Shown one piece after another: positions 18,899 through 32,177 of a DNA stretch of 46,619 nt. Source of the DNA: Bacteroidota bacterium (lineage in GTDB: Bacteria > Bacteroidota > Bacteroidia > Chitinophagales > JADIYW01). Positions within the stretch are counted from its first letter, which is position 1. The number at the start of each line of letters is the position of its first letter. The notes beneath the pieces are model-generated. The model was not told the DNA's origin, searched no databases, and worked only from the letters and a program-made list of their open reading frames with translations. The stretch is taken from assembly GCA_028288625.1 (NCBI GenBank), contig JAQBNI010000009.1, positions 1 through 46,619 of the forward strand, given 5' to 3'. The translations under genes were made by a program, and so were the position numbers.

Positions 18899-19004
18899 CA
18901 GATCCCAAATCAAGTTTGGGATGTTAGCCGTGAAGGGAAGAGATGACGGCGAAGCCGTCATCTCTTCCCTGGCGCACCGTCATCCTGAACTTGATTCAGG
19001 ATCT
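18899..19004 (+). repeat. Hairpin repeat element, copy A
   Basis: The left arm is ATCCCAAA-TCAAG-TTTGGGAT (18902-18922). The central hairpin is a perfect 17-bp stem with loop GAA (18934-18970). The right arm is ATCCTGAA-CTTGA-TTCAGGAT (18982-19002). Arms match copies B, C, D and E around the GIY-YIG gene. It sits between the convergent ends of the beta-barrel gene and hemB. Strand is given by the left-to-right order of the two distinguishable arms. Confidence 0.9.
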
Positions 19005-31214: not shown

Positions 31215-31315
31215 CAGATCCCAAATCAAGTTTGGGATGCATTGGATAATGTAAGGGGAGCGGCGCTGCCGTTCCCCTTACATAGCACTACCATCCTGAA
31301 CTCGATTCAGGATCT
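31215..31315 (+). repeat. Hairpin repeat element, copy B
   Basis: The left arm is ATCCCAAA-TCAAG-TTTGGGAT (31218-31238). The central hairpin is ATGTAAGGGGAGCGGC with partner GCCGTTCCCCTTACAT (31249-31264 and 31268-31283; one G-T pair, loop GCT). The right arm is ATCCTGAA-CTCGA-TTCAGGAT (31293-31313). It begins 21 bp after the aroB stop. Same orientation as copies A, C, D and E. Confidence 0.92.
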
Positions 31316-31341
31316 TACGGTACATTTTATTCTCGACTTTC

Positions 31342-31462
31342 AGATCCCTTTAAAGGAGCCCTTCGGACAAATCAAGTTTGGGATGCCTTAGTTGTTGCAG
31401 GTGGGCAGCTCTGCTGCCCACCTGCATAGCATACAGCCCATCCTGAACTTGATTCAGAATCT
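31342..31462 (+). repeat. Hairpin repeat element, copy C (with insert in the left arm)
   Basis: The left arm ATCCC ... CAAATCAAGTTTGGGAT (31344-31384) is split by a 19-bp insert (31349-31367) related to the perfect mini-hairpin in copy E. The central stem TGCAGGTGGGCAGC pairs with GCTGCCCACCTGCA (31396-31409/31413-31426), loop TCT. The right arm is ATCCTGAA-CTTGA-TTCAGAAT (31440-31460), one mismatch from perfect. Confidence 0.9.
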
Positions 31463-31546
31463 AAACAGTTCGCTTAGTCAAAAAATATTTCTCATTTTTT
31501 ATGGAATCTGCAATCAAAATGTATCTCAATAGAAGAAGTGCTTATA

Positions 31547-31879
31547 ATGAATGCATCCTGCGTCTATATCATCACTAATTATACAAGAAGTGTATTTTAT
31601 CTCGGAGTTACATCGTGTATATGGAACAGAATACTGGAACATAAAACCGGCTACGGTTGTACCTTTTCTTCAAAGTATAATATAAAATATTTAGTTTATT
31701 TTGAAGAATGCGAATGCCTGGAAGATGCCCTTTACAGAGAAAAGCAATTAAAAGCCTGGAACAGAGAATGGAAAATAGAATTGATAAAGAAAGAAAATAA
31801 TGCAATGGAAGATCTTGCAAAAGATTGGTATACGAAAGAAGATATAAATGATTTTTTAGAATCGATGAAGTTATATTAA
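31547..31879 (+). CDS. Stand-alone GIY-YIG nuclease
   Basis: The start is taken at ATG 31547 (MNASCVYIITN); an upstream GTG at 31538 is possible. The 110-residue protein is one GIY-YIG domain. The two Tyr motifs are CVYIITN and FYLGVTS, followed by the catalytic Arg/His in WNRILEHKTG, the metal-binding Glu in ALYREKQLKAWNREWK, and a helical C-terminus. It has no UvrC-type extra domains. Short proteins of this group are frequent in Bacteroidota and are usually of unknown function. Here the gene is bracketed by two hairpin elements on each side (31215-31462 and 31902-32177), all in the gene's orientation, which suggests the nuclease acts on or spreads with them. Confidence 0.88.
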   Translation: MNASCVYIITNYTRSVFYLGVTSCIWNRILEHKTGYGCTFSSKYNIKYLVYFEECECLEDALYREKQLKAWNREWKIELIKKENNAMEDLAKDWYTKEDINDFLESMKLY

Positions 31880-31901
31880 GACAGGTTTTTTTTCTACTGT
31901 T

Positions 31902-31996
31902 CAGATCCCAAATCAAGTTTGGGATGCCTTGTTTTAGGTGAGCCGGACGGCTTCACCGCCCGGCTCACTTGTAATCCAATATCCTGAATTTGATTG
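31902..31996 (+). repeat. Hairpin repeat element, copy D (right arm decayed)
   Basis: The left arm is ATCCCAAA-TCAAG-TTTGGGAT (31905-31925). The central stem GTGAGCCGGACGG pairs with CCGCCCGGCTCAC (31938-31950/31956-31968), one A-C mismatch. The right arm starts ATCCTGAATTTGATT at 31981 but the closing CAGGAT is lost. It begins 22 bp after the GIY-YIG stop. Confidence 0.85.
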
Positions 31997-32051
31997 CTTT
32001 TCCAGTTCGCTTCGCTCGGGTCAGTCTAAGCTCTATATTTGTTCAAGCTTT

Positions 32052-32177
32052 CAGATCCCTCCGAAGGAGTCCTTCGGACAAATCAAGTTTGGGATGCATA
32101 CCGAGATGCGAAGGGATGACGGCTTCGCCGTCATCCCTTCGCATGTGTACCGTCATCCTGAACTTGATTCAGGATCC
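32052..32177 (+). repeat. Hairpin repeat element, copy E (with nested mini-hairpin)
   Basis: The left arm (32055-32095) is interrupted after ATCCC by TCCGAAGGA-G-TCCTTCGGA (32060-32078), a perfect 9-bp nested hairpin, and then resumes CAAATCAAGTTTGGGAT. The central stem is a perfect 18 bp with loop TTC (32106-32144). The right arm is ATCCTGAA-CTTGA-TTCAGGAT (32155-32175). It ends 11 bp before the osmC stop codon. Confidence 0.92.

Follow-up and report, generated by a model that had tools for sequence, protein, structure and literature searches.

The described systems closest to the locus reported here are built on repetitive extragenic palindromes (REPs). In the REP-RAYT systems (RAYT, REP-associated tyrosine transposase), the enzyme TnpA-REP and its hairpin co-evolve, according to the accessible part of PMC8266576, and the REPtrons are described in the accessible part of PMC3733652 as incapable of self-propagation. 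The latter survey (Di Nocera et al., 2013) also defines REPs with a CGTC or TGTC tag, an 8-9 bp stem starting from AT, a 4-5 nt loop and a CCA tail, which occur mainly as head-to-head dimers with structured spacers and take in Neisseria dRS3 and Rickettsia RPE-4 and RPE-6. In the accessible text of the survey, for which transposases had been examined, the CGTC superfamily "apparently lack[s] a dedicated transposase", it is suggested that CGTC REPtrons have disappeared, and the term 'GIY-YIG' occurs 0 times. Here we analysed 46,619 nucleotides of a Bacteroidota bacterium (assembly GCA_028288625.1, contig JAQBNI010000009.1, positions 1 to 46,619 of the forward strand; this whole stretch is called the window), in which a gene for a small GIY-YIG nuclease is bracketed by hairpins of this kind. 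We consider it probable that the locus is a 'CGTC REPtron', which pairs a minimal stand-alone GIY-YIG nuclease with a family of CGTC-tagged REPs of its own that bracket the gene and are dispersed in the genome as non-autonomous copies; the nuclease most likely stands in the place of the RAYT.

On the side of the nuclease, Dunin-Horkawicz et al. (PMC1564403) placed the UPF0213 structures 1zg2 and 1ywl in a prokaryotic Slx1 family whose members were predicted to act in repair and to be inherited mainly vertically; in the accessible part of that paper 'palindrom' is absent and 'repeat' refers to ankyrin repeats. No published link between GIY-YIG nucleases and REPs was found among the papers listed from the literature searched, outside which lie most subscription papers and all bioRxiv preprints, and an earlier description is possible.

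Results

The nuclease gene and the hairpin elements of the window

The nuclease gene runs from 31547 to 31879 on the + strand (ATG start, 110 aa; a GTG at 31538 is an alternative start, giving 113 aa). Its product matches PF01541 with 38.3 bits (cut-off 22.6), the sole Pfam match in the 110-aa protein, in which no added DNA-binding (NUMOD) domain was found by Pfam. The GIY and YIG motifs are present together with the catalytic Tyr, Arg, His and Glu of the superfamily, and Tyr7, Tyr18, Gly20, Arg28, His32 and Glu65 do not vary across the 33 sequences of alignment A4. This bears out a preliminary description of the same DNA, which had claimed a stand-alone gene of 110 residues with catalytic Tyr, Tyr, Arg, His and Glu. 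The protein belongs to group I, our term for the minimal stand-alone GIY-YIG subfamily (alignment A1) of the UPF0213 or prokaryotic Slx1-like type, and the group I profile hits the UPF0213 structures PDB 1zg2 and 1ywl. Searches of NCBIfam (4 proteins) and PADLOC (2 proteins) gave zero matches. No intron or intein context was seen in the gene's neighbourhood as read, and no further intron search was made.

Four hairpin elements, all on the + strand like the gene, bracket it as the preliminary description had claimed, B and C upstream and D and E downstream; they were delimited by arm matches and folding. A fifth, element A (18902..19002, + strand, arm matches; central hairpin 18935-18969), is a solitary intact dimer of the same type, far from the nuclease gene. 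Elements A, B, C and E are head-to-head dimers, in which two hairpins face each other across a spacer hairpin, and the arms have an 8-bp stem and a 5-nt loop. Element B (31218..31313) is a heterodimer in which two REP hairpins flank the central hairpin 31251-31281. Element C (31344..31460; central hairpin 31397-31425) is of the same dimer type with its left arm split by a 20-base insert (31349-31368), and the left arm of element E (32055..32175; central hairpin 32108-32142) likewise has a 20-base insert, which in both cases sits after ATCCC; the right REP of E, with the full CGTC tag, begins at 32151. Element D (31905..31995) has an intact left arm and the central hairpin 31936-31970, and its right arm is reduced to ATCCTGAATTTGATT, followed by unrelated sequence, so that D amounts to one and a half hairpins. 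Two inverted arms around a central stem, proposed at first for each element, are found in A, B, C and E, with inserts in the left arms of C and E, and in damaged form in D; apart from such small corrections the preliminary description of the locus is confirmed.

In both A and E the right hairpin is CGTC-ATCCTGAA-CTTGA-TTCAGGAT-C, the right arm of E being made up of CGTC, ATCCTGAA-CTTGA-TTCAGGAT and CCA. The tag is intact only in A and E and has drifted in B and C, whose right arms are each one base off the consensus. With up to 3 mismatches, the window holds 3 matches to the intact left arm (0.00 expected) and 4 to the right arm (0.01 expected). The central hairpins of A-E are near-perfect yet differ in sequence from copy to copy, and folding of the elements as single-stranded DNA gave z-scores against shuffles of -7.1 (B), -6.7 (C), -5.9 (D) and -10.6 (E).

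Because the CGTC tag, the AT-starting stem, the 4-5 nt loop and the head-to-head dimers match the description in the accessible part of PMC3733652, elements B-E are, judged by their sequence, CGTC-tagged REPs, mostly in head-to-head dimers. The unpaired tag is seen in the right REPs of A and E (CGTC-ATCCTGAA), and stem, loop and dimer arrangement agree throughout, in D partially. The repeats are scattered in high copy, with 21 exact right arms and 21 copies of the left-arm core genome-wide, and the loose pattern GTCATYC..GRATC has 117 matches in the genome compared with 2 when the pattern is read backwards. An Rfam scan returned 8 matches under E 1, none of which approached its gathering score. 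The preliminary description was right to see REPIN-like hairpins here; it recognised neither the CGTC-tagged REPs nor the co-variation of arm and nuclease reported below.

The elements contain further palindromes. The central hairpins of A and E have GATGACGGC..GCCGTCATC in common, itself containing a CGTC tag. The insert of E contains the palindrome TCCGAAGGAGTCCTTCGGA (32060-32078), and a 19-bp palindrome (TCCGAAGGA[GC]TCCTTCGGA) is inserted in REP arms of two families of this genome (window 32060-32078; L120:1292), a decayed relative lying in element C (31349-31368). In genus g37, TCCGCCAGCTGGCGGA is located in REP loops. Even smaller palindromes seem to use the hairpins as targets.

Group I genes are flanked by tagged hairpins

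A PF01541 search of the window's own genome returned UvrC and six small matches, two of which (C104 and C117) run into contig ends and could belong to a single gene. A tagged hairpin lies within 450 bp of 5/6 small matches with the looser detector and of 4/6 when the tail is required; the detector found none at the C109 gene and none in the 18.5-kb stretch of UvrC. The arms are gene-specific, with CGTCATTCCCGCG at C47, CGTCATTTCGAAG and CGTCATTATGA at C104 and C117, and CGTCATCCTGAAC at the window gene. The same genome has 4 Y1/HUH matches, 3 of them above the cut-off, and no REP lies nearer than 1.9 kb to any of them (0/4 flanked); a HUH/RAYT enzyme of the same genome was for this reason rejected as the mobiliser of the REPs.

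The 118 Bacteroidota genomes have 1 to 25 PF01541 matches apiece. Around 53 PF01541 loci, one per genome, GTCATYY hairpins (6-bp detector) occur at 0.43 per kb within 200 bp compared with 0.005-0.024 per kb beyond 1 kb, and the reversed sequences of the same loci gave 0 matches within 200 bp and 1 at 200-400. The signal comes from group I, where 16/19 genes are flanked versus 3/34 for other stand-alone GIY-YIG genes (Fisher p 5e-8). The sample for this comparison was made of 50 of the 53 loci (L068, L074 and L087, without usable frame, were dropped) and three own-genome genes, sorted into subfamilies by hidden Markov model (HMM) scores.

Three further sets were collected. In the first (Set a), made by taking from each Bacteroidota genome the group I locus with the highest HMM score (30 loci), all 27 loci with full flanks have a tagged hairpin, and in a 64-tag scan with the 6-bp detector GTC ranked top with 19/30 loci, the next tag reaching 10 and the median tag 2. 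In the second (Set b), a plasmid collection was queried with the window protein alone, giving 33 records, some of them chromosomes, and 12 of the 16 examined, picked for variety, are flanked, including those of S. meliloti, A. lipoferum, N. gonorrhoeae, Shinella, Neorhizobium, Rhizobium CIAT894, Photobacterium, Aeromonas, Planktothrix and Spirosoma; here TGG (13/16) came before GTC (11/16), TGG being what the 3' CCA tail of these hairpins reads on the opposite strand. On the Planktothrix plasmid (L134:5680-6590) a DISARM defence locus encloses the group I gene and its repeats, with an MmeI-type gene on one side of them and drmA on the other.

In the third set (Set c), the best 80 of 573 confirmed loci in named genomes, 70/80 are flanked within 400 bp, 41 of them on both sides. 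REP density was 4.6 per kb within 200 bp compared with 0.05-0.22 beyond 700 bp, GTC was joint first with TGG in the 64-tag scan (70/80), and both the CTG tag and the reversed sequence gave 0/80. The flanked loci span eleven named phyla: Pseudomonadota (44/47), Myxococcota (4/5), Nitrospirota (3/3), Chloroflexota (2/2), Thermodesulfobacteriota (2/2), Bacteroidota (2/3), Planctomycetota (2/3) and, with one flanked locus each, Ignavibacteriota, Omnitrophota, Bdellovibrionota and Campylobacterota. Loci of Patescibacteria and Parcubacteria (unranked) are flanked as well, and the Berkelbacteria locus of this set is unflanked.

The strict 8-bp hairpin detector misses bulged families (it gave any match in 4/30 best PF01541 loci) and was replaced by one that requires tag, outer stem and tail. 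With this detector, in a pooled set of 194 group I open reading frames of at least 100 bits, 174 of them distinct with 450 bp on both sides, a tagged hairpin was found within 450 bp at 150/174 loci and on both sides at 113, compared with 2-7 of 174 for altered tags and 2 for reversed sequence. As a control family we used PF05635 (23S rRNA IVP-like), small, stand-alone and multicopy, with up to 16 copies per genome in the 118 Bacteroidota, yet 1/30 of its loci lies beside these repeats. Chance or a bias towards intergenic space was rejected by the distance profiles, the 64-tag scans, the reversed-sequence controls, the other GIY-YIG subfamilies and PF05635. The association of group I genes with tagged hairpins is secure, and the enrichment beside homologues that the preliminary description had asked for is found at 150/174 pooled loci, 70/80 across phyla and 27/27 in Bacteroidota versus 3/34 for other GIY-YIG genes, which excludes the absence of enrichment that it had named as fatal to its proposal.

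Arm sequence varies with the nuclease

In the genes with hairpins on both sides, the 9-nt arm is identical left and right in 68/92, compared with 16% between different genes. When six arm types were placed on the protein tree, 15 changes were needed compared with at least 40 (mean 45) in 200 shuffles; for this tree 119 of 174 rows were typed, 31 'other' and 24 unflanked being excluded. Concerning strand, the nearest upstream REP is '+' in 87/129 and the nearest downstream REP '-' in 89/132, which indicates that the tags tend to face outward.

A protein segment after EKQ[LI] varies with the arm type. It reads IKG in 9/9 proteins with ATTCTGAG-like arms, K[AG]GSR in 8/9 with ATTGCGAG arms (the ninth, L168, reads KAGSRQKK), K[KN]WxRxKK in 7/7 with ATTTCGA/ATCTCGA arms, KR[WY]xRxWK in 6/6 with ATCCTCGGG/ATCCCAGGG arms, K[KR]WxRxWK in 57/72 with ATTCCCGCG-like arms and KxWH[KR]xWK in 10/16 with ATCCTGAA-like arms, the window gene (KAWNREWK) being among the six misfits of the last type. 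From this agreement we infer that the variable segment after REKQ[LI]K may read the stem.

Group II genes adjoin a different repeat

Group II GIY-YIG genes adjoin another repeat (TGTC A NNN YGAGCGNAGTCGAR N'N'N') at 12/20 loci, which is found at 0/18 group I and 1/15 group III loci, the latter (L069) being really a misfiled group II gene. Repeats of the form TGTC..GAGCGNAGTCGA.. with variable stems were seen at the group II loci L072, L078, L083, L088, L093 and others.

The REP-gene-REP unit is mobile

The REP-gene-REP unit is present at non-orthologous sites. Two loci of genome G054, L178 and L190, have in common a 481-bp REP-gene-REP block, 94% identical, with no same-strand similarity outside it, and the L190 site is orthologous in G100 (L170), with 86% identity across 2.2 kb. 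In 8 genomes of genus g37 the block occurs at many sites, and gene-deleted and 148-149-bp forms are also found. At L178, L354, L347 and L362 it lies within a 524-532-bp element with inverted ends (TTGTAGATGT...), of which L190 retains the right end only; the 524-bp unit has room for no other protein. In the short form a single palindrome GTCATCCCG-n16-CGGGATGAC, or nearly so, replaces REP-gene-REP. The 148-149-bp elements at L366-L369, whose inverted ends resemble TTGTAGATGT and enclose a single palindrome at the centre, are apparently gene-less forms of the 524-bp GIY-YIG unit.

Filled and empty sites were also found. In A. lipoferum 4B (L129:5850-6440) the unit lies between sufB and sufC of the suf operon; 23 Azospirillum records matched this site, and in 11 other Azospirillum records among the matches listed (H35-H45) both flanks are present with a span of 1,116-1,213 versus 1,701 bases, the REP being absent at the site in all four Azospirillum records read. 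The gltA-lpxB gap of S. meliloti Ak57 contains the unit plus part of a second copy; it is about 700 bases shorter in three Sinorhizobium records, and in the one of these that was read a solo palindrome is found at the site together with a decayed REP. That palindrome, CTCATCCTCGGGCTTGTTCCCGAGGATGAC (L389:866-895), stands where Ak57 has REP-gene-REP and resembles a solo long terminal repeat or an unused target; solo palindromes of the form GTC..GAC can be read as either deletion scars or targets. At the site of the Shinella WSC3-e unit, five Shinella records are about 600 bases shorter in a comparison of spans only, made without alignment. For the loci of Spirosoma and N. gonorrhoeae, searches for empty sites found none.

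Orthologous nucleases are under purifying selection, with ratios of nonsynonymous to synonymous substitution (dN/dS) of 0.14, 0.02 and 0.13 in three orthologous pairs.

Discussion

The pairing of group I genes with hairpins across phyla, the match between the arms to the left and right of a gene and the co-variation of arm and nuclease clade make a functional partnership of nuclease and REPs likely, and the idea of a REPIN/RAYT-like system with a different nuclease, put forward in the preliminary description, is supported by flanking far above controls and by REP counts that rise with gene copies. We infer that hairpins are cleaved and copied by the nuclease system in the following manner. The enzyme would bind the hairpin formed in single-stranded or extruded DNA, reading the GTC-AT tag and the stem, partly via the variable segment after REKQ[LI]K, and would nick near the tag or the hairpin base; new copies of the unit or of its hairpins might then arise elsewhere through host replication or repair. 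DNA hydrolysis by GIY-YIG enzymes involves no covalent intermediate, so the enzyme should not join ends itself and spread would rely on host replication and repair, resembling homing rather than RAYT strand transfer.

Several observations weigh against a CGTC REPtron. Hairpins were not detected within 450 bp at 24/174 group I loci; 4/16 loci of the plasmid collection (N. aromaticivorans pNL2, Sphingobium, Rhizobium K1/93 and Sinorhizobium K101) and the sole Deinococcota locus of Set c are unflanked, and REPs are common farther off, 11/77 loci having one at 1.5-1.95 kb. Group I was delimited only after the flanks of the first loci were known, so that the later sets, selected by protein similarity, are the real tests, and query A2 of Set c, built from REP-flanked loci, is biased towards one REP type. 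Carried across phyla, the co-variation test is weak, because the nearest protein of another phylum has the same REP type in 74/119 cases compared with a mean of 51.8 and a maximum of 72 in within-phylum shuffles, and outside type A in 6/47 compared with a mean of 0.4 and a maximum of 7. Moreover, 15 pairs of g37 copies gave dN/dS values of 0.06 to 0.59, with few changes, and no target-site duplication was identified, also at the g37 524-bp unit.

Group I is present in 50 of the 118 Bacteroidota genomes, with several paralogues per genome, and the tracking of nuclease by hairpin copies that had been predicted is moderate, the REP-pattern count, itself noisy, correlating with group I copies at a Spearman coefficient of only 0.44 (118 genomes; at family level 0.43, p 0.016). 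The median count is 61.5 in genomes with group I and 33 in those without, so the repeats are not equally abundant without the nuclease on average. A real exception is genome G002, which lacks a group I gene and has 201 pattern matches, at least 60 of about 100 listed being GTCATCCTGAGC..CGAAGGATC. Among seven REP-pattern-rich genomes without group I, judged from two sample matches each (match positions were listed for G002 and G105), only those of G002 are REP-like and the rest resemble coding noise. Group II genes may serve the G002-type repeats.

Since the 524-bp element of g37, inside which the unit often lies, has its own inverted ends, another transposase could have moved it. Extended to all loci, this would make the REP-GIY-YIG-REP block a cargo and the REPs the ends or targets of a resident insertion sequence, a RAYT or the g37 inverted-repeat enzyme, with a nuclease whose job is unrelated. 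The gene-less 148-149-bp copies and the Y1/HUH matches of the window's genome agree with such a passenger; nevertheless, we regard it as unlikely, as those Y1 genes have no REP inside 1.9 kb, the arm type follows the nuclease clade, which a passenger does not need, and the other GIY-YIG subfamilies are mostly without these hairpins.

Purifying selection in the three orthologous pairs, together with the repair role and mainly vertical descent predicted for prokaryotic Slx1-like nucleases (accessible part of PMC1564403), would also suit a domesticated enzyme for resolving or trimming the cruciforms that REPs form at stalled forks, the REPs gathering by autoregulation or as high-affinity sites and not being spread by it. 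The patchy presence of the gene and its several paralogues per genome do not fit a caretaker of this sort, and the filled and empty sites, the decayed and deleted copies and the arms that match gene by gene resemble mobile DNA rather than housekeeping, so that we give this explanation quite a small chance. That REPs, which are intergenic, merely gather in any intergenic space or beside any small horizontally acquired gene, these genes being small, is scarcely credible, refuted as it is by the fall in REP density from 4.6 per kb within 200 bp to 0.05-0.22 beyond 700 bp and by the controls of the same size (3/34 other GIY-YIG, 1/30 PF05635).

If the CGTC REPtron is taken further, we lean, with some reserve, towards the view that GIY-YIG REPtrons form a class of prokaryotic mobile element in their own right, which at about 400-550 bp may rank with the smallest that are autonomous. 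A minimal Slx1-like nuclease and two hairpins would spread by structure-specific nicking and host-templated copying ('hairpin-homing'), without any HUH, DDE, serine or tyrosine recombinase; the majority of CGTC REPs, Neisseria dRS3 among them, would descend from such units as non-autonomous copies, a second repeat superfamily (TGTC..GAGCGNAGTCGA..) would be driven by group II, and the protein segment would be a readable code for the stem. The locus provides a concrete, testable candidate enzyme for the CGTC REPs, whose spread was left open in 2013 (accessible part of PMC3733652), suggests a role for proteins annotated merely as 'GIY-YIG nuclease family protein' and points to two or more independent origins of REPtron-like systems, with nucleases unrelated to each other. 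Should arm and segment be linked through recognition, this would offer a compact system for how a 100-residue nuclease reads DNA hairpins.

Compared with known systems, the right arm of window element E has the CGTC tag, AT-starting stem and CCA tail of the CGTC-tagged REPs, and the N. gonorrhoeae group I locus (L130) bears CGTCATTCCCGCG repeats. In the accessible part of the survey (PMC3733652) those REPs have no associated transposase gene, whereas here a GIY-YIG gene accompanies them and also accompanies bulged-stem families (ATTCTGAG.., ATTGCGAG.., ATTTCGA..). The Slx1-like/UPF0213 proteins 1zg2 and 1ywl have the same minimal domain and are both matched by the group I profile; a repair role and mainly vertical descent were predicted for them (PMC1564403, accessible part), whereas group I goes with palindromic repeats. 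In GIY-YIG homing endonucleases of the I-TevI type and in Penelope-like elements a GIY-YIG nuclease likewise drives the mobility of its own DNA; the present unit differs by its hairpin flanks and has no intron, second Pfam domain or reverse transcriptase. Finally, as in the REPtrons and REPINs with GTAG REPs and the Y1/HUH enzyme TnpA-REP, a small enzyme gene is bracketed by its own hairpins, numerous gene-less copies lie elsewhere, and enzyme and hairpin vary together (for TnpA-REP, accessible part of PMC8266576). Unlike in those systems, the enzyme is an unrelated GIY-YIG nuclease (PF01541) that uses neither HUH nor Y1 chemistry, the tag is CGTC and not GTAG, GTC leading or tying the 64-tag scans apart from TGG, its opposite-strand counterpart, and the unit itself is mobile, whereas REPtrons were described as non-self-propagating (PMC3733652, accessible part).

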